DNA of 64,000 nucleotides from Marinimicrobium koreense (GCF_003762925.1 NZ_RJUK01000001.1:248001-312000), one strand, 5' to 3'; numbered from the stretch's first letter, positions 27,526 through 51,194 are shown. The notes: generated by a model from the sequence alone, not told the origin. Numbers and translations are program-made.

Positions 27526-28818
27526 CTACACAATACCGGAACGGCTGCCACCGGTATCCGGGCGAGCCACCGCCGCCTGCTCGCGGTACTGGGAGGCCCG
27601 GTAGGTGGCGAGCGGATTGATCGCAGCGTTTTTCCGGAAACGGGCCATGGCCAGGATCGGAGACACGTCGACGTTGAACGCTCCTTTCAGTGTGTTGCTC
27701 GCCATCAGGGCATCATTGTCCTGCTGATAACCTTCCAGTGTCGTGCGGTCAACCAGCAGGGCCTTAATGTAAGAGCGCTGCACCTCAATCGCGGAATTGA
27801 TCAGACTTTCGATCGGGTCGGTGACATTGTGCGACTGGTCGAGCATATAGGCCGGTGAAAAACCGGGCTGTTTGCGGTGTTCGGCATCCACCAGCTCGTT
27901 GAATATAAGGAACTGCTGGTAGGGATGAATGGAGCCGCTGTCCAGATCATCATCGCCGTACTTGCTGTCGTTGAAGTGGAAGCCGCCCAGCTTCTTGAAC
28001 TGAATCAGGCGTGAGACGATCATCTCGATGTTGACGTTGGGTGCGTGATGACCCAGGTCCACCAGAGACTTGCACCGCTCGCCGGTTTCCATGGCCGCCA
28101 GGATGTTGCTGCCCCAGTCCTGAATGACTGTAGAGTAGAAGGCCGGTTCAAACATCTTGTGTTCCAGGTGCATTTCCCAGTCACCGGGCAGGGCAGCGTA
28201 AATGGCCTTGGCGCTGTCCAGGTAGCGCTCAAACGCGCGCTGGAAGTGTTGTTGGCCCGGATGGTTTGAGCCATCGCCGACCCAGACCGTCAGGGTGTCG
28301 GAGCCCAGCTTTTTACCCCACTCAATCACCTGGGTGTTGTGGGCGATGGCCTGCTCGCGTACCGCCGCACTGGTGTGGGTGAGGCTGCCGTATTTGTAGG
28401 ACTGCGCCTGGTCCGGCTGATCCTGGAAGGTGTTGGAGTTGACCGAGCTCCAGCTCAGGCCGTAACTGTCGGAGTGGGCTTTCAGTTCACTGAAGTCATC
28501 CACCACGTCCCAGGGAAAGTGGGGCGAAATGGCGCTGGCACAGCCCGAGAGCTGATGGATGACCGCGCAGTCTTCCACTTTCTCGAAAATGTTCCGCGGT
28601 TCACCGACGCCGGGAAAGCGGGCAAAGCGGGTGCCGCCGGTGCCGGTGCCCCAGGAGGGCACGGCGATGTCGAAGGCCTGAGCTTTTTCGGTCAGGGCGT
28701 TGATATCAACTCCCTTGCGGGAGAGCTGCTCGCCCAGAACCTCGAAATCCCGGTTGAGATCGGAGGCCAGTTTGTCGTTGTGCGCCGAGACGACGTCAGG
28801 CTGAATGGCGTATTTCAT
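27526..28818 (-). CDS. rhaI: L-rhamnose isomerase, RhaI type
   Basis: Converts L-rhamnose to L-rhamnulose. At 430 residues it matches the Pseudomonas stutzeri-type isomerase, not E. coli RhaA. Metal-site segments are MHLEHKMFEPAFYST (Glu), LVDLGHHAPNVNIE (Asp/His) and GGFHFNDSKYGDDDLDSG (His/Asp). Signature segments near the start are AVPSWGTGTGGTRFARFPG and HFPWDVVDD. It is encoded directly downstream of the aldolase/dehydrogenase gene (23-bp gap) and upstream of lutABC. Confidence 0.94.
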   Translation of the reverse strand: MKYAIQPDVVSAHNDKLASDLNRDFEVLGEQLSRKGVDINALTEKAQAFDIAVPSWGTGTGGTRFARFPGVGEPRNIFEKVEDCAVIHQLSGCASAISPHFPWDVVDDFSELKAHSDSYGLSWSSVNSNTFQDQPDQAQSYKYGSLTHTSAAVREQAIAHNTQVIEWGKKLGSDTLTVWVGDGSNHPGQQHFQRAFERYLDSAKAIYAALPGDWEMHLEHKMFEPAFYSTVIQDWGSNILAAMETGERCKSLVDLGHHAPNVNIEMIVSRLIQFKKLGGFHFNDSKYGDDDLDSGSIHPYQQFLIFNELVDAEHRKQPGFSPAYMLDQSHNVTDPIESLINSAIEVQRSYIKALLVDRTTLEGYQQDNDALMASNTLKGAFNVDVSPILAMARFRKNAAINPLATYRASQYREQAAVARPDTGGSRSGIV

Positions 28819-28841: not shown

Positions 28842-30941
28842 TTATCGGGTAAAGGACGGCGCGTGACCGGCATCGACGTTGATAATATTGCCGGTGGACT
28901 TGGCCGACAGATCCGCGGCGAAGAAGTAGGCGGCCTCGGCGATGTCTTCCGGCAACACCGAACGCTTGAGCATACTGCGCTGGCGGTAATGCTCTTCCAG
29001 TTCTTCGTTACTGATATCGTACGCTGCGGCACGCTCCTGGCGCCACTCGCCGTCCCAGATTTTGGAACCGCGCAGTACCGCGTCGGGGTTGACCACATTG
29101 CAGCGAATACCCAGCGGGGCTCCCTCCAACGCGATGCAGCGGGCCAACTGGATTTCGGCGGCTTTGGCTGTGCAGTAGGCCGACGCACCGGGCGAGGCCA
29201 CCAGGCCATTCTTGCTTACGATAAAGACCACGGAGCCGCCGGTGTTCTGCCGTTTCATCAGTTTGAAGCCTTCGCGACCGACCAGGAAATAACCGGTGGC
29301 CAGGATGCTGATGTTCTTGTCCCACAGGTCCAGGCTGGTTTCATCCAGCGGGGCGGAGCTGGCAATGCCGGCGTTGGACACCAGAATGTCGATGCCGCCG
29401 AACTCCCGGGCAACGTCGGCCATGGCACCGGCGACCGATTCGGGTTTGGTCACATCGCAGTGCACCTGGCGAATGACGTCCTTCCCGAACGCCTGAGTCA
29501 ATTCGCTCTGTGCGCGGTCGAGACCGGCCTGGTCAATGTCGGCCAACATGATGCAGGCGCCTTGCTCGGCCATACGGATGGCCGTGGACTTGCCGATGCC
29601 ACCGGCGCCACCGGTGATGAAGGCGATGCGACCGGCCAGAGACTTGGGCTTGGGCATGCGCTGCAATTTCGCTTCTTCAAGCAGCCAGTATTCAATATCA
29701 AACGCCTCCTGCTCCGGCAGGCCCACATACTCGCTGACGCCGTTGGCTTCGCGCATCACATTGATGGCGTTGACATAGAACTCACCGGCAATGCGCGCGG
29801 TGGCTTTGTCTTTGGCAAAGGTGATCATGCCGACCCCCGGCACCAGGTAAACCACCGCATTGGGGTCGCGCATGGCCGGGCTGTTGTTCCGCTTGCAACG
29901 ATCGTAATACGCCGCGTAGTCCTCGCGATAGGCTTCAAGTTGCTGATCCAACCCCTTCACGCAGCGTGCCAGTTCAGCATCAAGGTCCTTGGCTGTGGGG
30001 TCGAAATCCAAAACCAGCGGGCGAATTTTGGTGCGCAGGAAGTGATCCGGGCAGGACGTGCCCAGGGCGGCCAGTGGCTCCAGGTCTTTGGAATTCACGA
30101 ACTGCAGCACGGTATCGGAATCGTTGAAGTGGCCGATTTTGCGTTGATCGTTGGTGATTTTGCCGCGAATCAGGGGCATCAGCTCGCTGATGACGTCTTG
30201 GCGTTTGGTTTCATCCAGCGGGTCCTTGAACTTGGAGCCGCCGAAGGCGTCGGTTTTGTTGTTCGCTTCCAGCCAGTCCTGCGCGCGCTGAATGATGTTC
30301 AGCGTGGTCAGGTAACAGTCTTTGGCCGTGGGGCCCCAGGTAAAGATACCGTGACCTTCCAGCATGATGCCCTTCAGGTTGGGATTGTCTTTGGCCACTT
30401 TTTCCAGCTTCAGCCCCAGGTCGTAGCCCGGGCGCTGCCAGGGCAGCCAGCCCATTTCGCCTTCGAAAATCGTTTCGGTCAATTCTTTGCTGTTCTTGGT
30501 GCAGGCAATGGCGATGGCGGCATCCGGGTGCATGTGGTCGACATGCTTGTGGGGGATGTAGGCATGCAGCGGGGTATCGATGCTGGCGGCGCGGGGGTTC
30601 AGATTGAAAGTGCAGTGGGGCAGGTAGCCCACCATCTCGTCTTCGTGCTCCAGGCCCCGGTACAGGTCTTTCAGTTGGTGCAGCTTCTCCATATAAAGGG
30701 TGGAGAAACCATCGAGCTTGATCGAGCCCAGATCACCTCCGGAGCCTTTTACCCAGAGCACCTCGGCATCCTGACCGTTCAGTGGATCCTTCATGGTGAG
30801 TTTGGCCGAGGTGTTGCCTCCGCCGAAGTTGGTGATGCGCAGGTCGGAACCGAGCAGGTTGGAGCGGTACTTCAACAGCTCGGGCTCGCTCATCTTGGCG
30901 GCTTCTTGATCATTCCAGAGGTTATCTAATTTCGAGGCCAT
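28842..30941 (-). CDS. rhaEW: Bifunctional L-rhamnulose-1-phosphate aldolase / L-lactaldehyde dehydrogenase
   Basis: A 699-residue two-domain enzyme. Residues 1 to about 420 are a class II aldolase with zinc ligands His136 and His138 (HVDHMHP) and His197 (LEGHGIFTWG); it splits rhamnulose-1-phosphate to DHAP and L-lactaldehyde. Residues from about 430 are a short-chain dehydrogenase with the NAD site FITGGAGGIGKST and catalytic Tyr589/Lys593 (YCTAKAAE), which oxidises lactaldehyde to lactate. It is the first gene of the - strand operon, behind a near-consensus sigma-70 promoter. Placing lutABC downstream fits lactate as the product. Confidence 0.93.
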   Translation of the reverse strand: MASKLDNLWNDQEAAKMSEPELLKYRSNLLGSDLRITNFGGGNTSAKLTMKDPLNGQDAEVLWVKGSGGDLGSIKLDGFSTLYMEKLHQLKDLYRGLEHEDEMVGYLPHCTFNLNPRAASIDTPLHAYIPHKHVDHMHPDAAIAIACTKNSKELTETIFEGEMGWLPWQRPGYDLGLKLEKVAKDNPNLKGIMLEGHGIFTWGPTAKDCYLTTLNIIQRAQDWLEANNKTDAFGGSKFKDPLDETKRQDVISELMPLIRGKITNDQRKIGHFNDSDTVLQFVNSKDLEPLAALGTSCPDHFLRTKIRPLVLDFDPTAKDLDAELARCVKGLDQQLEAYREDYAAYYDRCKRNNSPAMRDPNAVVYLVPGVGMITFAKDKATARIAGEFYVNAINVMREANGVSEYVGLPEQEAFDIEYWLLEEAKLQRMPKPKSLAGRIAFITGGAGGIGKSTAIRMAEQGACIMLADIDQAGLDRAQSELTQAFGKDVIRQVHCDVTKPESVAGAMADVAREFGGIDILVSNAGIASSAPLDETSLDLWDKNISILATGYFLVGREGFKLMKRQNTGGSVVFIVSKNGLVASPGASAYCTAKAAEIQLARCIALEGAPLGIRCNVVNPDAVLRGSKIWDGEWRQERAAAYDISNEELEEHYRQRSMLKRSVLPEDIAEAAYFFAADLSAKSTGNIINVDAGHAPSFTR

Positions 30942-31113: not shown

Positions 31114-31184
31114 TTCAGTTTGAGCCTGCTTGTCGCGGCCCGAACCCTCGAATACCGTCAACAATACAAATAAGTATAGTGAAC

Positions 31185-32852
31185 ATGCCGTCCTACGATG
31201 AGTTTGAGCAGGCGCCCTTGCGGCCCGATCAGTTGAAGCCCGCCCGCCATTTTGCCGCCAGCTACGCCGGCGAGCATGTGGCGGGCACGGAATTTGTTAT
31301 TGGCGCCAGCTTTGTGGCCTGGGGCGTTGGCGTTGCCGATGTGCTCTGGGGGCTGCTGTGGGGCAATCTGGCCGCGGTGCTGACCTGGGGCCTGGTGTGT
31401 GCACCCATCGCGGTGGACACGCGTCTGACGCTCTACGCCTACCTGAAGAAAATTGGCGGAAAGGGGTTGATCAACCTTTATAGCGTCGTGAACGGCCTCC
31501 TTTTTTGTGTGCTGGCGGGCGCCATGATCACGGTATCGGCTTCGGCGGCCCGAATTCTGTTCGGTATCGGCCCGCAGGTTGAGTGGTACCCGACCGATCC
31601 CGCCTTCGTGGCCGTGGCCCTGCTGGTGGGTGCTGTGGTGACCATTGTCTCTACCAAGGGGTTTCGCCGTCTGGCGGTGTTTGCGCAAGTCTGCGCACCC
31701 TGGATGATCATGATGTTTGTGGTGGGCGGCTTGACCATGCTCACCGTTCTGCGTGACGCGACTCCGCTCGCGCCCGAGTCCTCTTTTTTTCAGCGTCTGC
31801 TATTGATCGCCGACTCTCACATATGGCGCGGTGACGAAGACGGGCTCGGGCTCTGGCATGTGGCGGCTTTTGCCTGGGTGGCCAACCTGGCCATGCATGG
31901 CGGCCTGTCAGATATGACCATACTGCGCTATGCCAGAAAGTCGTCCTACGGGTTTCTGTCTGTGTTGGGGATGTTTATTGGCCACTATCTGGCCTGGGTG
32001 TGCGCGGGCGTGATGGGCGCCGGGGCGGCGCTCGTTCTCAACACCTCCATTGAGAAACTGGATGCCGGCTCGGTTGCCTATCAGGCCCTTGGCGCGACCG
32101 GGATATTGGTCGTCATCATCGCGGGTTGGACAACGTCCAATCCGACCATTTATCGGGCCGGGTTGGCGTTTCAGTCATTGCACCCCCGGTGGCGTCGCAC
32201 CACGGTCACCGCCATTACCGGCGCGGTGACTACCGTCATCGCCTGTTTCCCGTTTGTGTTTACCCAACTGATGAGTTTTGTGGGCCTGATGGGGCTGATC
32301 CTGGCGCCGATTGGTGCGGTCATTGTGACCGAACACTGGATTTTTCCCCGGATCGGCCTGACCCGATACTGGAATCATTATCGAAAGGCCTATCTCAATT
32401 GGCCCGCCGGCCTGGCCTGGCTTCTGTCGCTGTGCGCAGCATGGGGTTTTCACCGGTTGGGCATTCATCTGTTTTTCCTGCTCATTCCGACCTGGATGAC
32501 CGCTACGGCTGTGTATACCGCCCTGGCGGCCTGGAGTGGGGCGGCCGGCTCCTATGCGCAATCCTCGGTGCACGAAGCGGAGGAGGCGCAGCGCAAGCAG
32601 GCCGAACAGCAGTATCTGCATGCGCCACAGACGCGAGCCGGCGCCGACGGAGGCCGCTTCGGTTCGCCCGCCATGGCCGCATCCGCTGTGGTGGCGATCG
32701 GCTCGTTGTTGGTTTGCTTGGGGCTCGGGCTGTATAGCGTCGATTCGGGTAACATTGACCTGGTCAAACACTGGGTCTTTCTTCCAACGGCGACTTATCT
32801 GCTATCGGCGTCCCTTTGGTCCCACTTGAAAGAGAAGCACGCCCAACGTTAA
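31185..32852 (+). CDS. NCS1-family (purine/cytosine permease-like) transporter, possible L-rhamnose permease
   Basis: A 555-residue inner-membrane protein with about twelve hydrophobic helices, including IGASFVAWGVGVADVLWGLL and AAFAWVANLAMHGGLSDMTI. The N-terminal FAASYAGEHVAGTEF and the overall layout match the NCS1 nucleobase:cation symporter superfamily. The ATG at 31185 is chosen over the GTG six bases upstream. It is the first gene of the permease-rhaB-PL11-BNR operon and divergent from rhaEW, so by context it probably imports L-rhamnose or an RG-derived sugar, not a nucleobase. A hydrophilic loop (about residues 455-495) precedes the last two helices. Confidence 0.8.
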   Translation: MPSYDEFEQAPLRPDQLKPARHFAASYAGEHVAGTEFVIGASFVAWGVGVADVLWGLLWGNLAAVLTWGLVCAPIAVDTRLTLYAYLKKIGGKGLINLYSVVNGLLFCVLAGAMITVSASAARILFGIGPQVEWYPTDPAFVAVALLVGAVVTIVSTKGFRRLAVFAQVCAPWMIMMFVVGGLTMLTVLRDATPLAPESSFFQRLLLIADSHIWRGDEDGLGLWHVAAFAWVANLAMHGGLSDMTILRYARKSSYGFLSVLGMFIGHYLAWVCAGVMGAGAALVLNTSIEKLDAGSVAYQALGATGILVVIIAGWTTSNPTIYRAGLAFQSLHPRWRRTTVTAITGAVTTVIACFPFVFTQLMSFVGLMGLILAPIGAVIVTEHWIFPRIGLTRYWNHYRKAYLNWPAGLAWLLSLCAAWGFHRLGIHLFFLLIPTWMTATAVYTALAAWSGAAGSYAQSSVHEAEEAQRKQAEQQYLHAPQTRAGADGGRFGSPAMAASAVVAIGSLLVCLGLGLYSVDSGNIDLVKHWVFLPTATYLLSASLWSHLKEKHAQR

Positions 32853-32927
32853 CCGGAACACTTGACTTGAACCGGGGTGAATCATGCAGCTATCCCGGCG
32901 ACAACACGACATGGTGAATTTGTCTCA

Positions 32928-34337
32928 ATGAGTAATATTCTGATTCTGGATATTGGTAAAACCAACATTAAAGTGCATGTTCTCGATGAGCATCTCGAGA
33001 GCCGGTTCGAGAAAACCAAACGCAATGCCGTGGTTGAGAATCCGCTTTATCCCCACTTCGATGTGGATGCCATATGGGACTGGTTCTGCGAGGCGGTTCG
33101 CGAGGTGTCGGACGCGTTTTCCATCACCGCAATCAGTGTCACCACCCACGGCGCTACGGCGGCCCTCGTTGATAGGCAAGGCTCCGGTAATGGGCTGGTG
33201 CTTCCGATTCTGGATTATGAATACGCGGGCCCTGGCGCAATAACTGGGGACTACACCGGCGTTCGACCGGATTTCTCCGAAACCCGCTCTCCCGATCTGT
33301 CGGCGGGCCTGAACCTGGGGCGGCAATTGTACTGGTTGCAGCAACGGTTTCCCCAGGCGTTCGGGCAAGCCACCGATATTCTGTTGTACCCCCAATACTG
33401 GGTGTGGCGGATGACCGGTGAGCGCTGCGCCGAAAGAACCTCGCTCGGTTGTCATACCGACCTTTGGGCTCCGGAGCGAAACGATTACTCATCGCTGGTT
33501 GACCGGATGGGGTGGCGAGCACTGTTTCCCGAGCTGAAAACCGCCGACAGTCTGGTGGGCCCGGTGTGTTCCGATTTCATCGCCCGAACCGGTTTGCCCG
33601 CTTCCTGTCAGGTTGCGGTGGGCATCCATGACAGCAACGCCAGTTACTTGCGGTATCTGCTCCAGAATGATGGCCAGCCTTTCTCTGTGATTTCTACCGG
33701 GACCTGGGCGATCACCATGACAAACAGCGGAGGTAACGCCGAACTCGACGAATCCCGGGACATGCTGATGAATGTCGATTGCCGGGGGACTCCGGTGCCC
33801 TGTGCCCGCTTTATGGGCGGGCGGGAGTACGAAGCCATCTGTTACCGCCTGGGATCCTATCCGGAGGAGCCCTTCAGTGTTGAGGATATCGACACCGTCC
33901 TGGCGGACGCCGTCTACGCGCTGCCTCAGTTCTGTGATACCTCGGGCCCGTTTTCCGGAACGCCGGGGCGAATTGAGGGAAGTATCGATCGAATAAACGG
34001 GGCCGCTCTGGCGTCGGTTTACAGTGCATTGATGCTGGATCTTGAGCTAGATCTTCTCAAGGCTCGGGGCGCGGTGTTTGTTGAGGGGGCCTTCCTGAAG
34101 AACAGCCTGCTGTGCCGAATGCTTGCAACGCTGCGCGGTGATAATCCGGTGTATCTGTCCAATGACTCGACGGGAACCGTCAAGGGCGCGGCGTCTCTGG
34201 CGCTTTCCGACCCGCAAAGTCCCGAAGGCGGACTCCTTTGTGAGCCATTGTCGATCGACGGCCTGGATCACTACAGGGCGCAATGGCGGAACTATTGTCA
34301 GGCGTTGGCAGTGGAGTCGTCGGCTGCATCGCTCTGA
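32928..34337 (+). CDS. rhaB: L-rhamnulokinase, FGGY family
   Basis: A 469-residue FGGY sugar kinase that phosphorylates L-rhamnulose. The ATG at 32928 gives the family start MSNILILDIGKTNIKVHVLD (phosphate-1 loop). Further blocks are VGIHDSNASYLRYL and FSVISTGTWAITM (phosphate-2 loop) and FVEGAFLKNSLLCRML (adenosine region). It lies 75 bp after the permease gene and 58 bp before PL11 in a + strand operon. Rhamnulokinase is preferred over fuculokinase because rhaI, rhaEW and rhaM are in the locus; the sequence alone leaves some doubt. Confidence 0.85.
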   Translation: MSNILILDIGKTNIKVHVLDEHLESRFEKTKRNAVVENPLYPHFDVDAIWDWFCEAVREVSDAFSITAISVTTHGATAALVDRQGSGNGLVLPILDYEYAGPGAITGDYTGVRPDFSETRSPDLSAGLNLGRQLYWLQQRFPQAFGQATDILLYPQYWVWRMTGERCAERTSLGCHTDLWAPERNDYSSLVDRMGWRALFPELKTADSLVGPVCSDFIARTGLPASCQVAVGIHDSNASYLRYLLQNDGQPFSVISTGTWAITMTNSGGNAELDESRDMLMNVDCRGTPVPCARFMGGREYEAICYRLGSYPEEPFSVEDIDTVLADAVYALPQFCDTSGPFSGTPGRIEGSIDRINGAALASVYSALMLDLELDLLKARGAVFVEGAFLKNSLLCRMLATLRGDNPVYLSNDSTGTVKGAASLALSDPQSPEGGLLCEPLSIDGLDHYRAQWRNYCQALAVESSAASL

Positions 34338-34395
34338 GAAAACTCACATCGTTTCTATAGCCAATAAACCTTATCGACCAAATGCAGGTTCAATC

Positions 34396-36396
34396 ATGAA
34401 AATATCGTTGCATAACACCAAGCTTTCATTCCGCCGGGCCCCGCTGGGACTGCTGTTGCTCGCCACACTGCCCGGTTGTGGTACCGCATTGAATGACAGT
34501 GATCCATCGGTGGCGAAGGGAGCGGATCAGAAGGTAATAAAACTGGCCGACGTAAAATCCGGAAGCCAGGACGGCCGGTTCCTGGAGCACCTGAATCGCG
34601 GATTGGTGGCGATACCTTCTGATAAGGGTGTGCTTGTTTCCTGGCGACAGTTGTATCAGGACCCTGACGGTCTGTCATTTTCAGTGTATCGGAACGGCGA
34701 ATTGATTTCGGAGCAGCCCATTAACGGGCGTTCCAACTTTATGGACCCGGAAGGAAAAGCCGGTGACGAGTATCAACTGAAAACCGATGGCCAGATCGTT
34801 GATGTGGCAACCACCTGGAGCGCCCCTTATCTTGAAATTCCGTTGGATGTGCCGGAAGACGGTGTGACGCCCGATGGTGATCGCTATCACTACACCGCCA
34901 ACGATGCCAGCGTTGGCGACCTGGATGGCGATGGCCAGTATGAAATCATTCTCAAGTGGGATCCCTCAAACGCAAAAGATAACTCCCAGGGTGGCTATAC
35001 GGGTAACGCCCTGATCGATGCCTATACTCTGGACGGTGAGCGGCTCTGGCGGATCGATCTGGGCCGGAATATCCGCTCCGGTGCCCACTACACCCAGTTC
35101 ATGGTGTATGACTTTGATGGCGATGGCCGCGCGGAGATCGCCATGAAAACCGCTGATGGAACCGTGGATGGAGAAGGCAATGTGATCGGGTCGGCGGACG
35201 CCGATTGGGTCTCTCACAGCGGGAATCCTGAGGTGAGAGACCGCACGGGATCAAAGGTTACCGAAGACGGGCGCTATCTGGGTGAACTCAAAGGACGAAT
35301 TCTCCAGGGCCCGGAGTACTTTTCCGTGTTCGATGGTGAAACCGGTCGGGTTATGGATACCAAGCCCTATATTCCCCAGAGGGCTCCGGGCAACGATAAC
35401 CCGACGATGGATGAGATGAAGTCCCTGTGGGGGGATGGCTATGGCAACCGGTCCGAGCGCTATCTTGCCGGTGTTGCCTTTCTGGACGGCGAGATGCCCA
35501 GTATCGTTATGGCCCGTGGCTACTACGAGCGCACCGTCATTGCCGCTTACGATTTCCGGGATGGCGAAATTTCTACCCGGTGGACCTTTGATACCCTGTC
35601 AGAGGAGATACCTGACGAGTACGCCGGGCAAGGCAATCATCAGCTGTCCGTAGCGGATATCGATGGCGACCGAAAAGATGAAATCATTTACGGTGCCATG
35701 GCCGTCGATCACGATGGTTCCCCGAAATGGAGCACTGGGTTCGGTCATGGCGATGCTCTGCACGTATCGGATCTGGACCCGGAAAACCCCGGCCTTGAAG
35801 TGTTTGGTGTTTATGAGGACATTCGCGGAAACGGTGGCATTGGCTCCGCGCTGATTGATGCGCAGAGCGGCCGGGTCCTCTGGACGAAAAGCGCCCGGAA
35901 AGACAATGGCCGGGGGCTGGCCGCCAATATTGATCCGCGCTTCCCCGGGGCTGAGGTCTGGGCACTGAATGCGCCGGAGTTGTTCGATATCAACGGAAAA
36001 TCCGCCGGCGCCCAGCGTCCTGGTCCGGTCAATTTTGCCGTCTGGTGGGATGGTGACCTGCAGCGAGAGCTGCTCAATCACAATACCGTCTACAAGTGGA
36101 ATTGGGAAACCGAGCAGGTCGATACTCTGATGAAGGTCAGTGGTATGACCTCCAATAACGGAACCAAAGCCACTCCGGCGCTATCGGGTGATATCTTTGG
36201 TGATTGGCGCGAGGAGATTATATTGCGCTCGGAGGATAATCAGTTTCTCCGGGTCTACTCCACCCCTATTCCCAGCGAGCACGGATTCACCACACTGATG
36301 CATGACCTGCAATACCGGCTCGCCATTGCCTGGCAGAACACGTCCTATAATCAGCCTCCCCATCCCAGCTTCTATATTGGAAGTGATCACGAATGA
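34396..36396 (+). CDS. Rhamnogalacturonan lyase, family PL11 (lipoprotein)
   Basis: A 666-residue PL11 lyase that cleaves the rhamnose-galacturonate backbone of RG-I by beta-elimination. The ATG at 34396 leads a signal peptide with lipobox TLPGC, so it is probably surface- or periplasm-anchored. The domain begins with LEHLNRGLVAIPSDKGVLVSW. Calcium-binding propeller motifs are plentiful (GDLDGDGQYEI, YDFDGDGRAEIAMKTADGT, DIDGDRKDEIIYGAM). The C-terminus has the typical TTLMHDLQYRLAIAWQ and YNQPPHPSFYIGSD. It shares the operon with rhaB and overlaps the BNR gene by four bases. Confidence 0.93.
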   Translation: MKISLHNTKLSFRRAPLGLLLLATLPGCGTALNDSDPSVAKGADQKVIKLADVKSGSQDGRFLEHLNRGLVAIPSDKGVLVSWRQLYQDPDGLSFSVYRNGELISEQPINGRSNFMDPEGKAGDEYQLKTDGQIVDVATTWSAPYLEIPLDVPEDGVTPDGDRYHYTANDASVGDLDGDGQYEIILKWDPSNAKDNSQGGYTGNALIDAYTLDGERLWRIDLGRNIRSGAHYTQFMVYDFDGDGRAEIAMKTADGTVDGEGNVIGSADADWVSHSGNPEVRDRTGSKVTEDGRYLGELKGRILQGPEYFSVFDGETGRVMDTKPYIPQRAPGNDNPTMDEMKSLWGDGYGNRSERYLAGVAFLDGEMPSIVMARGYYERTVIAAYDFRDGEISTRWTFDTLSEEIPDEYAGQGNHQLSVADIDGDRKDEIIYGAMAVDHDGSPKWSTGFGHGDALHVSDLDPENPGLEVFGVYEDIRGNGGIGSALIDAQSGRVLWTKSARKDNGRGLAANIDPRFPGAEVWALNAPELFDINGKSAGAQRPGPVNFAVWWDGDLQRELLNHNTVYKWNWETEQVDTLMKVSGMTSNNGTKATPALSGDIFGDWREEIILRSEDNQFLRVYSTPIPSEHGFTTLMHDLQYRLAIAWQNTSYNQPPHPSFYIGSDHE

Positions 36397-37754
36397 GGAC
36401 CATCCCTGGGGGGCATAGAGTGGTCGGTGCCGCGATGCTGGTCGCGGTCGCACTGGGTGCCTGTAGTATGCATTCGCTCGAGGGCGACTGGCCGAGGTCT
36501 CAGGCCGCAGGGGTCGATCAGATTCCGCTGGGGCCTGAGGCCTTCTCGGGAAGTTCGGTCAATGTGGTGGCCGGAACCCGCCAGATGCTCTTTACTCACG
36601 GCGGGCACCAGTACGCCGGGTACTACGACCCCGAAGGCCGGGTGATCCTGGCCAAGCGCCCACTGGGCTCGTCGCAATGGCAAAGGAGGGAGACCCCGTT
36701 TTTTGCCAATACGCGGGATGCGCACAACTCCATCAGTCTGATCGTGGACGGAAAGGGCTACCTTCATCTGGCGTGGGGACATCACGACTCGCCGTTGAGT
36801 TACAGCGTATCCGACGCCCCTGGCAGTCTGGACATGACAGAGCCAGTCGAGATGGTTGGCCCTGATGAGGATAAAGTCACCTATCCGCAATTCTTCCGAC
36901 TCAGCAACGGCAACCTGTTGTTTGTTTACCGGGATGGCGCGTCGGGCAGAGGCAAGGTGGTTCTGAATCACTACGATGCACAGCGCCAACGCTGGACCCG
37001 CAGACAGGATAACCTCATCGACGGAGAAGGGGAGCGAAGCGCTTACTGGGATATGGTGGTTGGCCCCGACGATACACTGCATCTGGCGTGGGTGTGGCGG
37101 GAGTCGCCCGACGTCGCCACCAATCACGATCTGCTGTATGCAGAATCAGTGGATGGCGGGGATACCTGGCGACGTCGCGACGGTACGCCGTACAGGCTCC
37201 CGATCACCCAACGTAGAGCGGAGGTCGCCCACGTCATCGAGCAGGACAGCAACCTGATGAACCCTCCCGCCGTTGCGGTTTCGGCAAACGGCGTTCCTTT
37301 TGTGACCTCCTACTGGTCTGAAAACCCGGGTGATAATCCGGGGTTCAACATTGTGTACCCCTCGTCAGAGGGCTGGAATTTTATTGCCGGACCCAAGGCG
37401 GCGCAGCCGTTCACTCTGGCGGGAGGCGGTACCAAGAAACCGCCGATCTCCCGGGCGGCGTTGCTGGTGGAGGAGAACGCGGATCGAATTCACCTTGTGT
37501 ATCGCAGTGACCACCACGGTGGACGCGTTGTCGGCGCCTCGTTAGCGAATCTGTCCGGGGCTGAATGGCGTTACCGGTACCTGACTGAGAGTTCGGTTGG
37601 CGCCTGGGAGCCCTCCATCGATCCGGCGCAATGGTCTGGCAATCAGCAAGCTCATATGTTGTTACAGCGTGTGGCGCAGGTTGACGGTGATGACGCCGTT
37701 GGAAAACAGCAGGAAGCAACCGCCATTCATGTGTTGGAGTGGCGCCCTCGCTAA
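36393..37754 (+). CDS. BNR_4-family beta-propeller protein, possible polysaccharide lyase
   Basis: A 453-residue secreted protein with a signal peptide/lipobox near residue 27 (VALGACSM). It belongs to the BNR_4 repeat family, which includes the PL24 and PL25 ulvan lyases. It keeps a His/His/Tyr/Arg set: His111 (DAHNSISL), His131 (LAWGHHDSPL), Tyr164 (VTYPQFF) and Arg180 (FVYRDGASG), with spacings of 20 and 16 residues that fit those lyases as I recall them. It overlaps PL11 by ATGA. No sulfatase gene is present, so an RG-I or other rhamnose-uronate substrate is more likely than ulvan. Catalysis is inferred. Confidence 0.75.
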   Translation: MRTIPGGHRVVGAAMLVAVALGACSMHSLEGDWPRSQAAGVDQIPLGPEAFSGSSVNVVAGTRQMLFTHGGHQYAGYYDPEGRVILAKRPLGSSQWQRRETPFFANTRDAHNSISLIVDGKGYLHLAWGHHDSPLSYSVSDAPGSLDMTEPVEMVGPDEDKVTYPQFFRLSNGNLLFVYRDGASGRGKVVLNHYDAQRQRWTRRQDNLIDGEGERSAYWDMVVGPDDTLHLAWVWRESPDVATNHDLLYAESVDGGDTWRRRDGTPYRLPITQRRAEVAHVIEQDSNLMNPPAVAVSANGVPFVTSYWSENPGDNPGFNIVYPSSEGWNFIAGPKAAQPFTLAGGGTKKPPISRAALLVEENADRIHLVYRSDHHGGRVVGASLANLSGAEWRYRYLTESSVGAWEPSIDPAQWSGNQQAHMLLQRVAQVDGDDAVGKQQEATAIHVLEWRPR

Positions 37755-37876: not shown

Positions 37877-38088
37877 GAAGTTGGGATTCAGGTTGCTCCG
37901 TTGATAGTACACCCGGTGTCGCACAGAGAGCATTCTCTCACCCGGCCCTTCGAGTCCGCTCAACAGCTTTCCTCTGGTCCGGTGTTCTCCTGTCTCCTGG
38001 TTTACCAGCGCCGACTACCACCGAGCAATCACGACTTCTGATCTCCTCCTCGGCTTGCTGCTGATTCTCCAATCAGCAGCTTTTTTTT
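37877..38088 (+). ncRNA. Candidate small RNA of about 210 nt
   Basis: The segment lies between a promoter-like sequence (37842-37870) and a perfect intrinsic terminator (38057-38088), in a 415-bp gap between the BNR gene and the convergent TonB receptor gene. A short open frame covers part of it, but its ATG (37838) is upstream of the predicted transcript start, so coding is unlikely. A small hairpin (GAGA-gcat-TCTC) is near 37927. I do not recognise a known sRNA family. It could instead be a long 3' UTR of the BNR operon. Confidence 0.45.
38057..38088 (+). terminator. Strong intrinsic terminator
   Basis: GCTGCTGATT-ctcc-AATCAGCAGC, a perfect 10-bp stem, followed by eight T. It terminates + strand transcription, 300 bp past the BNR gene stop. 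Confidence 0.92.
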
Positions 38089-38169: not shown

Positions 38170-41100
38170 TTACATCCGGTAAGTGAAACCAGCGGAGAAC
38201 ATGCGGCCAGACCACTGAAGGTCATTGGTCCGTCCGACACCGGAGGTTTCCAGCTTCACTTCTTTACCCAGGTTCCGCGCATCGACGTAGAACTTCAGGT
38301 TTTCATCATAGGTATAGGTGATCTTACCGTCGATGTAACCGCTGGCATCCACGAATACCGGCAGGCCGTCAAACACGCGCGAATAGTATTCATCGCGGTA
38401 GTTGTAGGCCAGCTTGAGGCTCCAGGTGTCGTCCTCGTAGAAGGCTTCGAGGTTGTAGGAGTTCTCTGACTGGCCACGCAACGGCATCTGCTCGCCGGTC
38501 AGCGGATTGAAGTCATCCACGTTGTCGGCGGTGATATAGGTGTAGTTGGCTTTCGCACCGGTGTTGTTGAAAGGCTCGGGCAGGAAGTCAAAGAAAGTAG
38601 AGGCCTGAAACTCAAAGCCCTTGGTAGTGATACCCTCTTTGTTCACCTGCTGGCGAACATCCCACAGGGTGCCGTCGTTGAAGAAGTCCACGTCCTGCTG
38701 GGTTTCTGCACCGAAGATGTAGCTGGTGATGTCCTTAACGAAATAGGCACCGGACAGAATGGAGCTTTCATTCGGATACCAGGTCAAAGCCACTTCACCC
38801 TGAGTCGCGCGGTAGGGATCCAGGTCCGGGTTACCTGCGGTACAGGTGTTCGGGATCATCTGATCACGTGCGAGCGGATAATCGCGCAGAGTACAATCGG
38901 CGTTGATGTTCAGGTCGTTGATCTGCGGGCGAGCCATCACTTTCGCCACGCCCAGATAGGCTTCCAGCCCTTCGATCATTTCCAGAGTCAGGTTCAGGCT
39001 GGGCAGCACATCCACGAAGTCTTCCTCGACGGTCTGGCGACCTTCGAATGCGCGCGGATCATCCGGATCTTCGACACCGGCCAGGTCTTCACCGTTGGGG
39101 CCGTAAATCGGGTTGCCATCTTCGTCGGTCTGCTCCACGAGTACCCGAATGCGGGAGAAACCCTCTGAAGCGGTTTCGGTGCGAGCGACCCGGACACCAA
39201 AGTTACCACGCAGTACCATGCTACCGACATCGGTCTCGAAATCAGCCTGCACGTAGGCGGACTGGGTCTGGACATTGATGTCGTAACGGCTGTCGATGGG
39301 TTGCAGGTTGCCGCGCGCCGCTTCGGCGGAACTGAAGCCGCTGCGTTCAAGCAGGGCCGCCAGGTAGGGCTCGGTATCAACGGCCATGTAACTCTCGATG
39401 ATATCCACGCCCGGGTTGTAATCCCGGAAGAACTTGTCCGTTGCAAAACGGTTTCCAAGCAGCACCGCCTCGTGATCGTCCTGGGTCCAGATGCGGGTTT
39501 CACCATCGACGGTATAGGGGTTGCCCACGGTCTGCATCAGGTTGTAGCCCCAGGCGTTGTTGGCGAAGTCCTGGTCGGTGGCGATAAAACCGGTGCGGTA
39601 GGCGGTGAAAAAGCTCTGCTCGGGACTGTAGGTCACATCAAATTTGGCAATATTCTCAGATGCTTCGCTCTGGGAAGGCGCGTACTTGAAGCGGTCCAGA
39701 GAGGTGTACTGAGTGCCGTCATTGTAGTTGAAAGTATTGAAGGTATCTTCAACGTCGTCCTGATTGATGATGTAGGCGTCGGTAAAGTCGATTTCCGGAA
39801 GGTCATTGACCTGGGTGACGACAATGCCCCCCACGTTGTTCTGTGCGGTCTGGGTATCCCGGGAATCAATATCCTCAAACGTGGTGGAGCGTGCGATATA
39901 GCCATCGATCGCCAGATTGTCGTTGACATAGTCGAACCCGGCGCGCATCACTTTGCGTTCCTGGTTCCAGTCAAAGTTCAGAGTCCGGTTTCTGATGGTG
40001 GCACCAATAGGTGTGCCCGCCGCGTTCACGCCGTTGGTTACAAACTGGGTAACGTTCTTGTTGGCATCGACCACCGCGCTGTCGATATCAAAGGCGGAAC
40101 CGACTTCTACCTGAAAGTTGCGGTCGGTCGCCAGTTTTTCCCGCTCACCGTCGGTGTAGGAGAGATCAAAAGACAGGTTGTCGGTAACGGCGTACTGCAC
40201 TTCGACGTTGGCTGATAGGCGGTTCTCTTCACGGCCCCAGATACTGTAGCGGGGAGTGCTCGGGCTGTATTCGTGCCACTGCTCCAGGCACGCTGTTTCG
40301 CTTGCTGAATCGAGCCCCGCATCCATACACTCCTGTTGGGTGGAGTAGTCTGCATAAAGCTGATCGACTGAGGTCTTGCTGGCTACTCCGTCAACATCGT
40401 GGTATTTCTGCCAGTTGGTGTTACGCAGGCCATGCAACATGGTATGCACATCGGAGCCGGTAATATTCACCAGGAAGCCAAGGCGGTCGGATGCCTTGTA
40501 GACGCCGGTCAGGTTGTACTTGGGCATTACCTCATCAATCATGGAGTTGTACTGGGCTTCACCATTGATTGACAGGAAGTTTTCTTCAAACTCGTTGGGT
40601 TTGCGCGTGTTGACCTGAATGGTGCCGCCCACGCCACCTTCGGTGAGTCGTGCCTCGGAGCCTTTATAGACGTCAATCGACTTGACCAGTTCGGAGGCCA
40701 TGTCCCGGAAGTCCACACTGCGGCTGCCGCCCATACCCATGGCGGTCACGCCGTTCAGCTCAACCCGCACCAGGCCTGACTCAACGCCCCGAACACTGAC
40801 GGAGGTACCTTCACCCATATCGCGGTTAAGCTGAATACCGGAGATCCGCTGTAGCGCTTCACCGATATTCTTGTCGGGGAATTCACTGATGTCTTCGGCC
40901 ACCAGGGAGTCCATCATGGTACCGGCTTCCCGCTTCCGGTCCAGAGCACTGGTGTAGCTCTGACGGATGCCGGTGACCAATACCTCTTCAAGTACGGTAT
41001 CTTCGGACGACGCGCTGTCGTTCTGAGATTGGCTTTGCTGTTCCTCGTCCTGCTGCTCCTGCGCGTAGGCGTTGGTCACCATAAAGGTGCTGCATGCGGC

Positions 41101-41205
41101 GCCGGCCAGAACAATGGAAGCAATACGACTGGCTAGTGAATTCTTTCTGAAGAGTGGTGTTGTCTTGGTGCAATCAAGCTTTTCAGACTGATTGTAGTTA
41201 TTCAT
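38170..41205 (-). CDS. TonB-dependent outer-membrane receptor
   Basis: A 1011-residue receptor, presumably importing RG-I oligosaccharides. The signal peptide ends near VTNAYAQ. A Gln/Glu/Ser-rich stretch is followed by the TonB-box region (EEVLVTGIRQSYTSALDRKR), the plug domain (EDISEFPDKNIGEALQRISG, TSVSVRGVESGLVRVELNG) and a long beta barrel ending in the aromatic C-terminal strand SGRMFSAGFTYRM. It resembles the Xanthomonadales/Caulobacter type of carbohydrate receptors. No SusD homolog is present. It is divergent from the large PL11 gene across a 665-bp gap, which links it to RG-I uptake. Confidence 0.93.
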   Translation of the reverse strand: MNNYNQSEKLDCTKTTPLFRKNSLASRIASIVLAGAACSTFMVTNAYAQEQQDEEQQSQSQNDSASSEDTVLEEVLVTGIRQSYTSALDRKREAGTMMDSLVAEDISEFPDKNIGEALQRISGIQLNRDMGEGTSVSVRGVESGLVRVELNGVTAMGMGGSRSVDFRDMASELVKSIDVYKGSEARLTEGGVGGTIQVNTRKPNEFEENFLSINGEAQYNSMIDEVMPKYNLTGVYKASDRLGFLVNITGSDVHTMLHGLRNTNWQKYHDVDGVASKTSVDQLYADYSTQQECMDAGLDSASETACLEQWHEYSPSTPRYSIWGREENRLSANVEVQYAVTDNLSFDLSYTDGEREKLATDRNFQVEVGSAFDIDSAVVDANKNVTQFVTNGVNAAGTPIGATIRNRTLNFDWNQERKVMRAGFDYVNDNLAIDGYIARSTTFEDIDSRDTQTAQNNVGGIVVTQVNDLPEIDFTDAYIINQDDVEDTFNTFNYNDGTQYTSLDRFKYAPSQSEASENIAKFDVTYSPEQSFFTAYRTGFIATDQDFANNAWGYNLMQTVGNPYTVDGETRIWTQDDHEAVLLGNRFATDKFFRDYNPGVDIIESYMAVDTEPYLAALLERSGFSSAEAARGNLQPIDSRYDINVQTQSAYVQADFETDVGSMVLRGNFGVRVARTETASEGFSRIRVLVEQTDEDGNPIYGPNGEDLAGVEDPDDPRAFEGRQTVEEDFVDVLPSLNLTLEMIEGLEAYLGVAKVMARPQINDLNINADCTLRDYPLARDQMIPNTCTAGNPDLDPYRATQGEVALTWYPNESSILSGAYFVKDITSYIFGAETQQDVDFFNDGTLWDVRQQVNKEGITTKGFEFQASTFFDFLPEPFNNTGAKANYTYITADNVDDFNPLTGEQMPLRGQSENSYNLEAFYEDDTWSLKLAYNYRDEYYSRVFDGLPVFVDASGYIDGKITYTYDENLKFYVDARNLGKEVKLETSGVGRTNDLQWSGRMFSAGFTYRM

Positions 41206-41870: not shown

Positions 41871-44800
41871 ATGAGAAAAGACGGAAGTTACTCCAAAGGC
41901 AAAATACGGGCACTGGCGGTACCGCTTGTGCCAGTGTTGTTATCCACGATGCTGGTGGGCTGTGATGACGAGTACACACCGGCCGAGCCCTTCAACGCTC
42001 CACCACTGACCGATGCTGAGCGCGACACCAGCGGCAGCTCCAATGTCGAATACCTCGATCGCGGATTGGTAGTAATGCCCGGCGAGGAAGAGGGCAATGT
42101 CTTGAGTTGGCGCTGGTCTGGTCTGGACGAGCAACGCATTATCTTCGCCGTCTATAAGAATGATGAGTTCTTCCGGACGGTTCGCCCCGGAGAGCCCACT
42201 TTCCTGGAAGACCCCAACGGGATGCCCGGGGACACCTATCAGATCGAGGCCCTGGTTGACGACGAACAGAAAGATGTCTCGGCCGTGGTTGCCGCACCGG
42301 AGACGTCTTATCTGAGTATTCCCCTGAACAAACCGGCCAATGGCTTTGTCGATGGAGAAGAGTACAGCTACTCAGCCAACGACGCCTCTGCCGCTGATTT
42401 GACCGGCGATGGCCAGTATGAACTGATCGTCAAGTGGAACCCCGACAACGCCAAAGACAATGCGCAGTCCGGCAAAACCGGTGATGTGCTCATTGATGCC
42501 TATACGATGGAAGGCGACTTCCTTTGGCGCATTAACCTGGGGCCGAATATTCGTGCCGGCGCTCACTACACCCAGTTTATTGCCTACGACTTTAATCAGG
42601 ACGGCCGCGCCGAAGTGGCTATGAAGACCGCCGATGGCACTGTTGACGGTCGCGGTACCGTGATTGGCGACGCCGAAGCCGTCTATCGCAACGATGGTGG
42701 TTATATTCTGGATGGTCCCGAGTATCTGACCATGTTCGATGGCATTTCCGGTGAAGCCATCAGTACCGTTGATTATATTCCACCTCGCGGAGAAGATATC
42801 AACGCAATCTGGGGGGACGACTACGGCAACCGGGTCGACCGTTTCCTGGCCGGTGTTGCTTACCTGGATGGTCAGACGCCGAGTCTGGTGATGTCTCGCG
42901 GCTATTACACCCGTGCCGTGGTGGCGACCTTCAACTTCGATGGAAGCACCCTGACTCAGAATTGGGTCTATGACTCGGCTGAGGATGAGTCTGGGCCAAG
43001 TCTGGCAGGACAGGGCGCGCACAGCCTGAGTGTGGCCGATGTCGACAGCGACGGCAAAGATGAAATCATCTTCGGCGCGGCTACCCTGGATGACAATGGT
43101 ACTCCGCTGTACAGCACTGGACTCGGACACGGTGACGCACTTCACGTCACAGATATCATTCCGGATAATCCCGGTCTGGAAATTTTCATGGTTCACGAAA
43201 GTTCCAGCGCCTACATTACCGAGGATGGCAATTTTGGTGTGGAGGTCCATGATGCCGAAACCGGTGAAATCCTGATTTCACAGCCAAGCAATGGCGAGGG
43301 CGATGATGTCGGTCGCGGCGTGACCGGGGATATCGATCCGAATTATCCAGGTCTGGAGAGCTGGGGTTCTCGCGGTGGTCTGATGGCGTCCGATGGTACC
43401 GTCATTTCCGAGAATAAGCCGGCCATGAACTTTATGGTCTGGTGGGACGGCGACCTCAGCCGCGAAATGCTGGATGGTACCGAAATCACCAAGTGGAACC
43501 CTGAGTCCATGCTGGTGGAAGAGCCTCTGCTGAATGCCGGTACCTTCGCCAATGGTCTGGCGGTGTCCAACAATGGCACCAAGGCGACCCCCGCCCTGTC
43601 CGCCGACCTGCTGGGCGACTGGCGTGAAGAGGTGGTGTTTGCCAATGAGGCCAGCACCCGGTTGATGGTCTACTCAAGCAATATTCCCACCGATGTCCGC
43701 TTGCCCACTCTGATGCATGATCGTCAGTATCGTACTGCCATTGCGTGGCAGAACGTTGGTTACAATCAGCCTCCGCACCCCAGCTTCTATATGGGTTCGG
43801 ATATGAAGCTGTACGATCATATTGTGAAGGAACTTCCGCAGTTCAAAACCCAGGCGGTCCCGGCCGAGCCTGTCAGTGCCGCTGTCGTCCAGGGCAATAA
43901 TGACAATGTTCTGGTCAAGGTGATTCCCGGTGACGCGGAGCTCGACTCCTTTGAAGTGTTCCGGAGTGAATCCGATGCGCGCGATTCCGCGACCAGTGTG
44001 GGTGTGGCCGAAGGTGGTGAGACATCGTTCGTTGACGATTCAGCCAGCCCGGATGTGACCTACTATTACTGGGTTGAAGCCACCGATCTGGATGGCAATG
44101 CAATCGCCGGTATTGATGGTCCCTATCAGACACGACTGACATCCACGCAGATTCCCCGTGTCGAGGCGGCCAGTTCCAACAACTACGTCGACCTCACTTG
44201 GGTGACCGACCTCGTGTTGAGCGATATTTATATTTATCGCGCTGAGACCGATGATGTCGAGGATGTGCCAGAAAAACCTTCTATGGCTTACGCAGAGGTT
44301 AACCCGGACGCAAAAACCTGGACCGATGGCGACACAGAAGAAGGTGGTAAGTACTACTACTGGGTGGAGCTGACCACGGTAGAGGGTAATATCATTGACG
44401 CGGCTCCAGCCTTTGGGGAAAACCTGGTGGTAGAAGCCTCCAACCTGAGCGCTACCTATGCCGATGGTGTCATGACAGTATGTTGGGACCTTGAGAACGT
44501 TGCGCCCGGTGCGACTTATAATGAGCTGTACCGCAACGATCAGAACCAGGCCAGTGGCCGCTCGCGGATCTACCCGATCAGCGATCCAGCGGTGATCTAC
44601 GAGGGCTGCTTTGAAGATGCTGGGCCTGAGGGTGGCTTTATCGAAGGCCAGGGGTACTGGTATATGTTCAAGCAGGTCGCCAGTGCGGAGATCGTTGGTC
44701 CCTTCGGTTTTGGTCTGGAGAGCAATGTCACCAACCTGTCAGCCGAGCTTGACCCGGCGCTGGGCACCATCAATCTGACTTGGAAGCTGTGGAACTTTGG

Positions 44801-45764
44801 TCAGGACATTGCCAGTGTTGATCTGTACCGTAACACCAGTGATTCGCTGACCGGAAAAACGCTGGTGCGTGCAGATGTCAGAGCGTTTGACGGTCGCTTG
44901 CGCGACACCGGTGGCGACAACGGTTTTACTCAGAATGAAACCTATTGGTACTCCTTCGAGGTAACTCTGCAGGATGGCACAGTGGTCAATACTGATCCGG
45001 AAGGTGAAGTTTTGTTCGAGCTGCCTGAGCCGGAAACCAATATCCTCACGCGTCTGGAAGATGGTGGTATTCGCATCGACTGGAACCTGGAAAACTTCCA
45101 GGGCGAGATCAGCCAGATCGAAATCCTGCGCAACACCCAGGCGTCCGCTGAAGGTGCCACCGTGGTGGTGTCCGAAGGTCTGGAGCTGCGCGGTGTGTAC
45201 GCCGAGTACGAGGGTCTGGTGGAACTGCAGTCCTACTGGTACTTCATGCGGGTCACCATGGCCAATGGCGATGTCATTGTCGGCGAGCCCTCCACGGAGC
45301 TGGTCTATGAGGAAAACCCGAGTACAACCAGTCTGACCATCAACGAGAACGAAGATGGTTATTGCGAGATGTCCAATGGGTTGATCGAGAGCAACTGGGC
45401 CGGCTTTGAGGGCGATGGTTTCTCCAATACCGATAACGCCGAAGGTGAGTACATCACCTACAAGGTCAACATTCGGGATGCGGGCACCTACCGTCTGCTG
45501 GTTCGCTACGCCAACGGTGCGGGGGATAACCGTTTCGCCCGTGTGGATATCAACAGCCAGATTGGCGTGGCCCAGATCGATATGGAGTCCACCTCGGCCT
45601 GGGATACCTGGATGGAGTCCAGTGTTGATCTCGAGCTTGAGTCAGGCGAGACCGATATTACCCTGTACGCCGGCTCCGGCGGCGGTCTGGGCAATGTCGA
45701 CTACCTGTACATCAATGCGCTGACCACGGAAAACGCTCCGCAAGCGATTGCTTGCACACCGTAA
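41871..45764 (+). CDS. Modular rhamnogalacturonan lyase: PL11, Fn3-like repeats, CBM
   Basis: A 1297-residue lipoprotein (lipobox TMLVGC, about residue 30). Residues about 60-660 form a PL11 domain paralogous to the shorter lyase upstream (YLDRGLVVMPGEEEGNVLSW, ADLTGDGQYELIVKWNPDNAKDN, DVDSDGKDEIIFGAA, GYNQPPHPSFYMGSD). About 665-1160 holds several fibronectin-like repeats with recurring YYYWVE/TYWYSFE strands. The C-terminal about 130 residues (EYITYKVNIRDAGTYRLLVR, GLGNVDYLYINAL) look like a CBM6/CBM35-type sugar-binding module. It probably attacks RG-I at the cell surface. It is a single gene, divergent from the receptor. Confidence 0.93.
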   Translation: MRKDGSYSKGKIRALAVPLVPVLLSTMLVGCDDEYTPAEPFNAPPLTDAERDTSGSSNVEYLDRGLVVMPGEEEGNVLSWRWSGLDEQRIIFAVYKNDEFFRTVRPGEPTFLEDPNGMPGDTYQIEALVDDEQKDVSAVVAAPETSYLSIPLNKPANGFVDGEEYSYSANDASAADLTGDGQYELIVKWNPDNAKDNAQSGKTGDVLIDAYTMEGDFLWRINLGPNIRAGAHYTQFIAYDFNQDGRAEVAMKTADGTVDGRGTVIGDAEAVYRNDGGYILDGPEYLTMFDGISGEAISTVDYIPPRGEDINAIWGDDYGNRVDRFLAGVAYLDGQTPSLVMSRGYYTRAVVATFNFDGSTLTQNWVYDSAEDESGPSLAGQGAHSLSVADVDSDGKDEIIFGAATLDDNGTPLYSTGLGHGDALHVTDIIPDNPGLEIFMVHESSSAYITEDGNFGVEVHDAETGEILISQPSNGEGDDVGRGVTGDIDPNYPGLESWGSRGGLMASDGTVISENKPAMNFMVWWDGDLSREMLDGTEITKWNPESMLVEEPLLNAGTFANGLAVSNNGTKATPALSADLLGDWREEVVFANEASTRLMVYSSNIPTDVRLPTLMHDRQYRTAIAWQNVGYNQPPHPSFYMGSDMKLYDHIVKELPQFKTQAVPAEPVSAAVVQGNNDNVLVKVIPGDAELDSFEVFRSESDARDSATSVGVAEGGETSFVDDSASPDVTYYYWVEATDLDGNAIAGIDGPYQTRLTSTQIPRVEAASSNNYVDLTWVTDLVLSDIYIYRAETDDVEDVPEKPSMAYAEVNPDAKTWTDGDTEEGGKYYYWVELTTVEGNIIDAAPAFGENLVVEASNLSATYADGVMTVCWDLENVAPGATYNELYRNDQNQASGRSRIYPISDPAVIYEGCFEDAGPEGGFIEGQGYWYMFKQVASAEIVGPFGFGLESNVTNLSAELDPALGTINLTWKLWNFGQDIASVDLYRNTSDSLTGKTLVRADVRAFDGRLRDTGGDNGFTQNETYWYSFEVTLQDGTVVNTDPEGEVLFELPEPETNILTRLEDGGIRIDWNLENFQGEISQIEILRNTQASAEGATVVVSEGLELRGVYAEYEGLVELQSYWYFMRVTMANGDVIVGEPSTELVYEENPSTTSLTINENEDGYCEMSNGLIESNWAGFEGDGFSNTDNAEGEYITYKVNIRDAGTYRLLVRYANGAGDNRFARVDINSQIGVAQIDMESTSAWDTWMESSVDLELESGETDITLYAGSGGGLGNVDYLYINALTTENAPQAIACTP

Positions 45765-50039: not shown

Positions 50040-50087
50040 TACCGAAAACGTTTTTTATTGATTCATACGCTAGAGGTTTTAAGAAGT

Positions 50088-51194
50088 ATGCCAACTGTTG
50101 CACATAACATCGAATACGCCCAGGTCCGGAACACCATCGATAAGTTGATCGATAATCTGGTCAACATCAAAGATGAAACCGGTGAGTTCCTGCTCAAGCT
50201 AGACGATGGTCGGGTGATTGATACCAAAGGCTGGGCCGGCTGGGAGTGGACTCACGGCATTGGCCTCTATGGCTTGATGAAATACTGGGACATTACCGGC
50301 GACGAAAAGCCCAGGAAGATCATTGAAGACTGGTTCAGTGACCGGCTTAAGGAAGGTACGCCCACCAAGAACGTGAACACCATGTCCCCGTTCCTGACCC
50401 TCGCCTATATGCATGAGCGTACCGGAGAGCGCAGCCACCTCCCGTACCTGGATGTCTGGGCGGAGTGGGTCATGCGGGATATGCCCCGGACCACGGAAAA
50501 TGGTCTTCAGCATATTGTCTACAACTCAGTGAACTATCAGCAGTTGTGGGACGATACGCTGATGATGAGCGTCATGCCGTTGGCCAAAATCGGATTATTG
50601 TTGGACCGTCCTCACTATGTGGAAGAGGCCAAGCGGCAATTCATGTTGCACATCAAATATCTGGCGGATCGGAAGACCGGCCTCTGGTTCCACGGCTGGA
50701 CCTTTGATGGCAACCACAACTTTGCCGATGCCCTGTGGGCGCGAGGCAACAGTTGGGTCACCATCTCCATCCCCGAGTTTATTGAATTGCTCGACCTTCC
50801 AAAGACCGACGGTCTGCGTATGTTCCTGGAGGAAACCCTGGAAGCCCAGGTCAAAGCGCTGGAGGAAACCCAGCACCAAGACGGCCTGTGGCACACCCTG
50901 TTGGATGACCCCGACTCTTACCTCGAGGCCTCGGCCGCCGCCGGCTTTGCTTACGGTATTCTGAAGGGCATTCGCAAAGGCTATCTCGACAAAAAGTACG
51001 AAGAAGTTGGCCTTAAGGCAGTCAAAGCCGTGCTGGATAATATCAGTGCGGACGGCGAGCTCCAGCAGGTGTCGTTCGGCACGCCGGTCTTTGATGACTT
51101 GCAGGGTTACCGGGACATCCCCCTCACCTCCATGCCCTACGGTCAGTCCATGGCCATTCTGCTGTTGGTCGAATACATGAACTATTACATCTGA
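50088..51194 (+). CDS. Unsaturated rhamnogalacturonyl hydrolase, GH105
   Basis: A 368-residue (alpha/alpha)6-barrel enzyme of the YteR/YesR type that hydrates the double bond of unsaturated GalA-Rha and releases rhamnose plus a keto-deoxyuronate. The ATG at 50088 is chosen because family members start near here. Key segments are [36 protein letters not shown] with Asp156 as the likely catalytic acid, [24 protein letters not shown] and [15 protein letters not shown]. No signal peptide is seen, so disaccharides must enter the cell. It lies 48 bp after PL26. Confidence 0.93.

Follow-up and report, generated by a model that had tools for sequence, protein, structure and literature searches.

PL42, the name under which CAZy was to reclassify GH145 (PMC8377490), has been characterised as a family of Rha-alpha-1,4-GlcA lyases (PMC8377490, PMC10951650). 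FoRham1 of Fusarium oxysporum acts by beta-elimination on Rha-alpha-1,4-GlcA, with trace activity on ulvan and undetectable activity on RG-I oligosaccharides. Its Asp83 is part of a His-His-Asp triad (PMC10951650), its Tyr26 and Gln276 bind O2/O3 of the rhamnose, and mutants of its base/acid (H85A and H85F), like BT3686 H90A, are dead or nearly so. BT3686 has two sites, i.e., a posterior hydrolase site with His48 and an anterior lyase site, and mutants have proven a PL25-like triad in the latter, with H90A, Y143F and R333A all inactive on wine AGP (PMC8406133). The anterior site of the Bacteroides homologues is used on wine AGP and not on gum arabic, so fine specificity varies within the family, and BT3686 is reported to be inactive on RG-I and RG-II. 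The next closest described enzymes are the ulvan lyases of PL25 (PLSV_3936) and PL24 (LOR_107 and Uly1), which share the seven-bladed propeller and a His/His/Tyr/Arg arrangement and are endo-acting on sulfated ulvan, unlike the exo action predicted for the protein described here.

This protein is encoded in a 64,000-nucleotide stretch of the Marinimicrobium koreense genome (the window, meaning the whole stretch that was analysed; Table 1), and it belongs to PL42. The first-pass annotation had called it a BNR_4 propeller, and both its match to Pfam PF15892 (E 2.8e-82) and its seven-bladed fold, which superposes on PL42 structures, agree. A phmmer search against solved structures gave BT3686 (5muk, E 2.8e-108), BACOVA_03493 (4irt, E 2.9e-107), BACCELL_00856 (E 1e-102), BACINT_00347 (E 5.8e-101) and FoRham1 (7esk, E 2.2e-26), then PL24 proteins with partial coverage (from E 1.4e-5), and no PL25 chain appeared among the matches at E up to 10. 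For comparison with solved structures by VIA-align, an AlphaFold model was built from 33 sequences (the window protein and relatives; mean pLDDT 91.4, pTM 0.92), and it too placed PL42 structures (4irt, Z 60.9, rmsd 1.4; 5muk, Z 52.6, rmsd 1.5; 7esk, Z 45.9, rmsd 2.1) ahead of PL25 (Z 36.4) and PL24 (Z about 30). Sequence and fold ranking thus rule out membership of the ulvan-lyase families.

The four Bacteroides proteins share the fold (Z 52.6–60.9, rmsd 1.4–1.6), the anterior lyase residues and 40–42% identity with the window protein. However, the latter scores 457.8 bits against the NCBIfam equivalog for BT3686 (NF052497), under its 700-bit cut-off, and it sits in an RG-I/rhamnose operon. 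Identity falls to 22% with FoRham1, which still has the Asp-His-His triad, Tyr, Arg and uronate-subsite residues in common, and to about 14–17% over the fold (Z 28–36) with PLSV_3936 and LOR_107/Uly1. A lipobox-like VALGAC-S, found by eye at the N-terminus, suggests a lipoprotein. The gene is single-copy in its genome, where the other BNR_4 protein is a different one.

The anterior site was assessed in 91 relatives, 80 from genome contigs and 11 from the same bacterial family, with some species present twice. His111, His131, Tyr164 and Arg180 had been singled out in the first-pass annotation as lying in conserved-looking motifs, with a His-His spacing of 20 and a Tyr-Arg spacing of 16 that match those of the PL24/PL25 ulvan lyases. 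The translated ORF confirms the positions and spacings, and the match to PL25 holds, because the spacings are identical in PLSV_3936 (His123/His143, Tyr188/Arg204) and FoRham1 (His85/His105, Tyr150/Arg166) (PMC8377490). The residue set is near-invariant in the relatives and is therefore not a product of chance. BT3686 His90, Tyr143 and Arg333 correspond to His111, Tyr164 and Arg354 here, and superposition on 5muk and 7esk suggests that the anterior-site side chains cluster in three dimensions. On the uronate side, FoRham1 Arg166, Ser170, Tyr202 and Arg220 correspond to Arg180, Ser184, Tyr218 and Arg236, each present in all 91 relatives. A search of this set for a uronate-subsite change specific to the window found none; the differences unique to the window fall elsewhere.

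Table 1. Features of the window, with positions counted from its first nucleotide; residue rows give the codon.
Position	Strand	Feature	Basis
27526..28818	-	L-rhamnose catabolism isomerase	TIGR02629, 679.8 bits, over cut-off
28842..30941	-	Bifunctional rhamnulose-1-phosphate aldolase/dehydrogenase	TIGR02632, 1029 bits, over cut-off
31179..32852	+	Multi-spanning permease-like protein, first operon gene	No family match
32877..34337	+	FGGY sugar kinase, rhamnulokinase-like by context	Domain match
34390..36396	+	PL11 rhamnogalacturonan lyase	RGL11_C E 2.5e-224
36393..37754	+	PL42 (former GH145) seven-bladed propeller, putative lipoprotein, 453 aa	BNR_4, fold, PL42 structure matches
36597..36599	+	His69 = BT3686 His48, catalytic His of posterior hydrolytic site	Alignment
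36717..36719	+	Asp109 = FoRham1 Asp83, third of His-His-Asp triad	Alignment, 90/91 relatives
36723..36725	+	His111 = FoRham1 His85 (base/acid), BT3686 His90	91/91 relatives
36783..36785	+	His131 = FoRham1 His105, BT3686 His110	89/91 relatives
36882..36884	+	Tyr164 = FoRham1 Tyr150, BT3686 Tyr143	91/91 relatives
36930..36932	+	Arg180 = FoRham1 Arg166, BT3686 Arg159, carboxylate neutraliser	91/91 relatives
38057..38080	+	Terminator-like hairpin, T8 tail, after operon	Pattern match: 10 found, 7.6 expected
38170..41205	-	TonB-dependent receptor, convergent to operon	TIGR01782 E 3.4e-148
41871..45764	+	Second PL11 lyase, CBM6-like tail	Domain match
47334..50039	+	PcRGLX-like (PL26-type) exo-RG lyase	Domain match
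50058..51194	+	GH88/GH105 unsaturated glycuronyl hydrolase	PF07470 E 3.8e-100
54985..57690	+	Second PcRGLX-like lyase	Domain match

PL42 ends a tightly packed series of genes (permease-like, FGGY kinase, PL11, PL42), to which the isomerase and aldolase/dehydrogenase genes are divergent. The permease-like gene is also the conserved first gene in three syntenic loci (L138–L140). Translational coupling to PL11, as first proposed, is borne out by a 4-base overlap, i.e., the PL11 gene ends in ..GAATGA.. and the PL42 ATG lies within it, and in the sister genome, which is 92% identical, these two genes overlap by GTGA. RG-I degradation together with rhamnose catabolism accounts well for the cluster as a whole. 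In line with the earlier statement that there are no sulfatases nearby, a scan of window proteins from about 17 kb onward picked up no sulfatase domain. The window also encodes a second, shorter protein with the rhamnulose-1-phosphate aldolase half only and no dehydrogenase domain (45891–47144, - strand), and a 1290-aa protein with GH115 (alpha-glucuronidase-like) and GDSL esterase domains (57692–61564, + strand).

The pairing of PL42 with PL11 is specific to this lineage: in 80 relatives' loci (flanks up to 10 kb), none had a PL11 match near PL42, which rules out the pairing as conserved evidence for RG-I. The gene order permease-kinase-PL11-(slot)-TonB receptor is kept in three other genomes. 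In two of them, G088 and G037, a 3-keto-disaccharide-hydrolase-like gene occupies the slot, and in G002, which was placed in the window's own genus, the slot is empty. Among the syntenic operons compared, PL42 fills the slot in the window and in G001 only, so it looks as though the only PL42 copy was relocated into the permease-kinase-PL11 operon in this lineage. At the genome level, PL11 is commoner in PL42-bearing members of the bacterial family (10/14 versus 29/181, Fisher 2e-5, kinship ignored). The link of PL42 to RG-I is purely positional, and this position is lineage-specific; the RG-I target implied by the first-pass annotation is not supported by the biochemistry of the family, in which FoRham1 and BT3686 fail to act on RG-I substrates.

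Across the family, the context of PL42 is arabinogalactan, not RG-I. GH88 and GH105 enzymes act on 4,5-unsaturated uronates, as made by lyases, and a GH88/105 gene or domain is fused to or adjoins PL42 in at least 32 of the 80 relatives' loci and lies within 10 kb in 47. Several relatives (e.g., L007, L011, L014 and L015, with others, from Cellvibrionaceae) are single chains of about 815–835 aa in which BNR_4 is followed by GH88. These fusions from Gilvimarinus and other Cellvibrionaceae belong to the same sequence clade as the window protein (about 47–55% identity), but they carry the unsaturated-uronyl hydrolase domain on their own chain and have no adjoining PL11. No paper devoted to a fusion enzyme of this kind came up in a full-text literature search combining PL42 and GH105. 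Other fusions are GH43-PL42 (L072:8879-11203, its GH43 half matching the exo-beta-1,3-galactanase structures 3vsf and 7bys), PL42-GH16 (L101:9842-12055) and GH2-PL42 (L053:8096-11263), and in further relatives the neighbourhood of PL42 includes genes of GH35, GH30_2, GH127 and GH43. The PL42-GH88/105 and GH43-PL42 fusions together fit a lyase function and an arabinogalactan substrate.

The window also has a BT_3657-like GH43 gene (21769–22728, + strand); about 13 of the 80 relatives have a homologue of it no more than 10 kb from PL42, with 52% identity in Hymenobacter (L106). In one relative, the PL42 gene (L016/L023, G060:C1:3708827-3710082) is interrupted by a stop codon or frameshift and is likely a pseudogene. 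Outside the window, the same genome encodes a GH88/105-BNR_4 fusion with the opposite domain order (L115:3602-6043; G000:C1, about 2308601–2311042). Among solved structures, its GH105 half comes nearest to the unsaturated 3S-rhamnoglycuronyl hydrolase 4ce7 (E 5e-74), and for its propeller half sequence comparison at E 0.01 gave none. Even so, all 12 aligned rows of the propeller keep an Asp-x-His / His (+20) / Tyr / Arg set. This propeller may represent an undescribed lyase family.

The rhamnose side of the site differs from that of the characterised enzymes. By sequence alignment, Gly61 corresponds to Phe40 of BT3686 and Tyr26 of FoRham1, and Pro291 corresponds to Gln270 and Gln276, respectively, a putative swap of two rhamnose-subsite residues. 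The pair has switched together (60 Phe/Gln, 28 Gly/Pro), with 2 changes on a tree made by a quick method. The Gly/Pro clade that includes the window is mostly Gammaproteobacteria with some Verrucomicrobiota.

Taken together, we consider it fairly probable that the protein is an exo-acting Rha-alpha-1,4-GlcA lyase that has been drawn into a regulon for rhamnose and RG-I. On its front face, His111, held by Asp109 and His131 and with Tyr164 alongside, would take the C5 proton of the uronic acid, while Arg180 and Tyr218 would neutralise the carboxylate and the L-rhamnose on O4 would be expelled. Terminal L-Rha-alpha-1,4-D-GlcA caps would thereby be removed from arabinogalactan-type side chains, leaving a 4,5-unsaturated uronate which the cell's GH88/GH105 enzymes could remove, and the freed rhamnose would enter the rhamnose pathway of the same operon and its divergent neighbours, into which this lineage's single PL42 gene appears to have moved. 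The unchanged Arg180, Ser184, Tyr218 and Arg236 favour Rha-GlcA; the differences at Gly61 and Pro291 from both FoRham1 and BT3686 count against it, as do the score under the BT3686 equivalog cut-off and the variable fine specificity of the Bacteroides homologues. An AGP substrate is unsupported by the organism's own gene content, because no GH30_2 was detected in its genome and no convincing GH43 exo-beta-1,3-galactanase was found there (best match E 3.9e-4 over 89 aa). The first proposal, a propeller lyase acting on a non-sulfated rhamnose-uronate polymer, was sound as to the kind of enzyme and expected substrate class, but the enzyme is PL42 rather than PL24/PL25-like. Nor is the substrate class new, as had been suggested, because PL42 is already characterised (PMC8377490, PMC10951650) and a PL25-like triad is known in BT3686 (PMC8406133).

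Compatible with an exo Rha-GlcA lyase is a tentative extension of it, in which the protein would be bifunctional, combining the lyase site with a posterior retaining rhamnosidase on Rha-GlcA that uses His69. This residue aligns with BT3686 His48, and in Bacteroides homologues a Q-to-H or D-to-H change at this position restored hydrolase activity (PMC8377490). The window protein and that of the sister genome have a natural His nested in a mostly-Asp group, their nearest relatives having Asp, so the His was probably regained. However, the position is very labile, as expected if it is often unused: 34 of 91 relatives have His, the others have Asp, Glu, Phe, Tyr or Gln, and the tree (quick method) requires 21 changes. 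FoRham1 has Tyr34 rather than a posterior His. Nor does His track the presence or absence of GH88/105 (13/33 versus 22/47, p 0.65), which argues against it as a stand-in for a GH88/105 partner.

Activity on RG-I (Rha-GalA) is possible but, in our judgement, improbable. In this case, PL42 would have been re-specialised for the beta-elimination of monomeric rhamnose from the non-reducing ends of RG-I oligosaccharides (Rha-alpha-1,4-GalA), and it would be a monosaccharide-releasing RG lyase working on oligosaccharides made by PL11 and trimmed by GH105. Its appeal is that the genome's only PL42 copy overlaps PL11 within a rhamnose operon, as in a second species, that neither GH78 nor GH106 rhamnosidases nor the AGP-backbone enzymes were detected in the genome, and that PL42 and PL11 co-occur at the genome level in the kinship-blind comparison above. 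The clade's altered rhamnose-subsite residues also fit, as does the long stem branch (0.79, quick method) of the window pair, but the Gly/Pro change is common to relatives without a nearby PL11. All uronate-subsite residues are conserved, neither FoRham1 nor BT3686 acts on RG-I, and the release of rhamnose from RG-I could already be achieved by the PL26-type lyases together with GH105. In GalA the O4 is axial, which calls for anti-elimination, whereas syn-elimination has been proposed for FoRham1 on GlcA.

An ulvan-type endo-lyase (PL24/PL25-like) on rhamnose-uronate polymers is very improbable. The residue set and spacing are shared, and PL25 and PL24 come directly after PL42 in the structural ranking (Z 36 and 30), but the protein lies much nearer to PL42/GH145 by both sequence and fold. 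In addition, FoRham1 shows no more than trace activity on ulvan, and no sulfatase turned up where the window was scanned.

PL42 has been known from gut Bacteroides and a Fusarium. This survey adds a marine-leaning gammaproteobacterial clade with its own putative rhamnose-subsite residues and natural PL42-GH88/105 fusions, and in one lineage PL42 appears to have left its usual setting for an RG-I/rhamnose operon. According to PMC8406133, sulfated AGPs aside, the substrates that such lyases meet in nature have yet to be found, and this clade offers a concrete, easily assayed case for that question.
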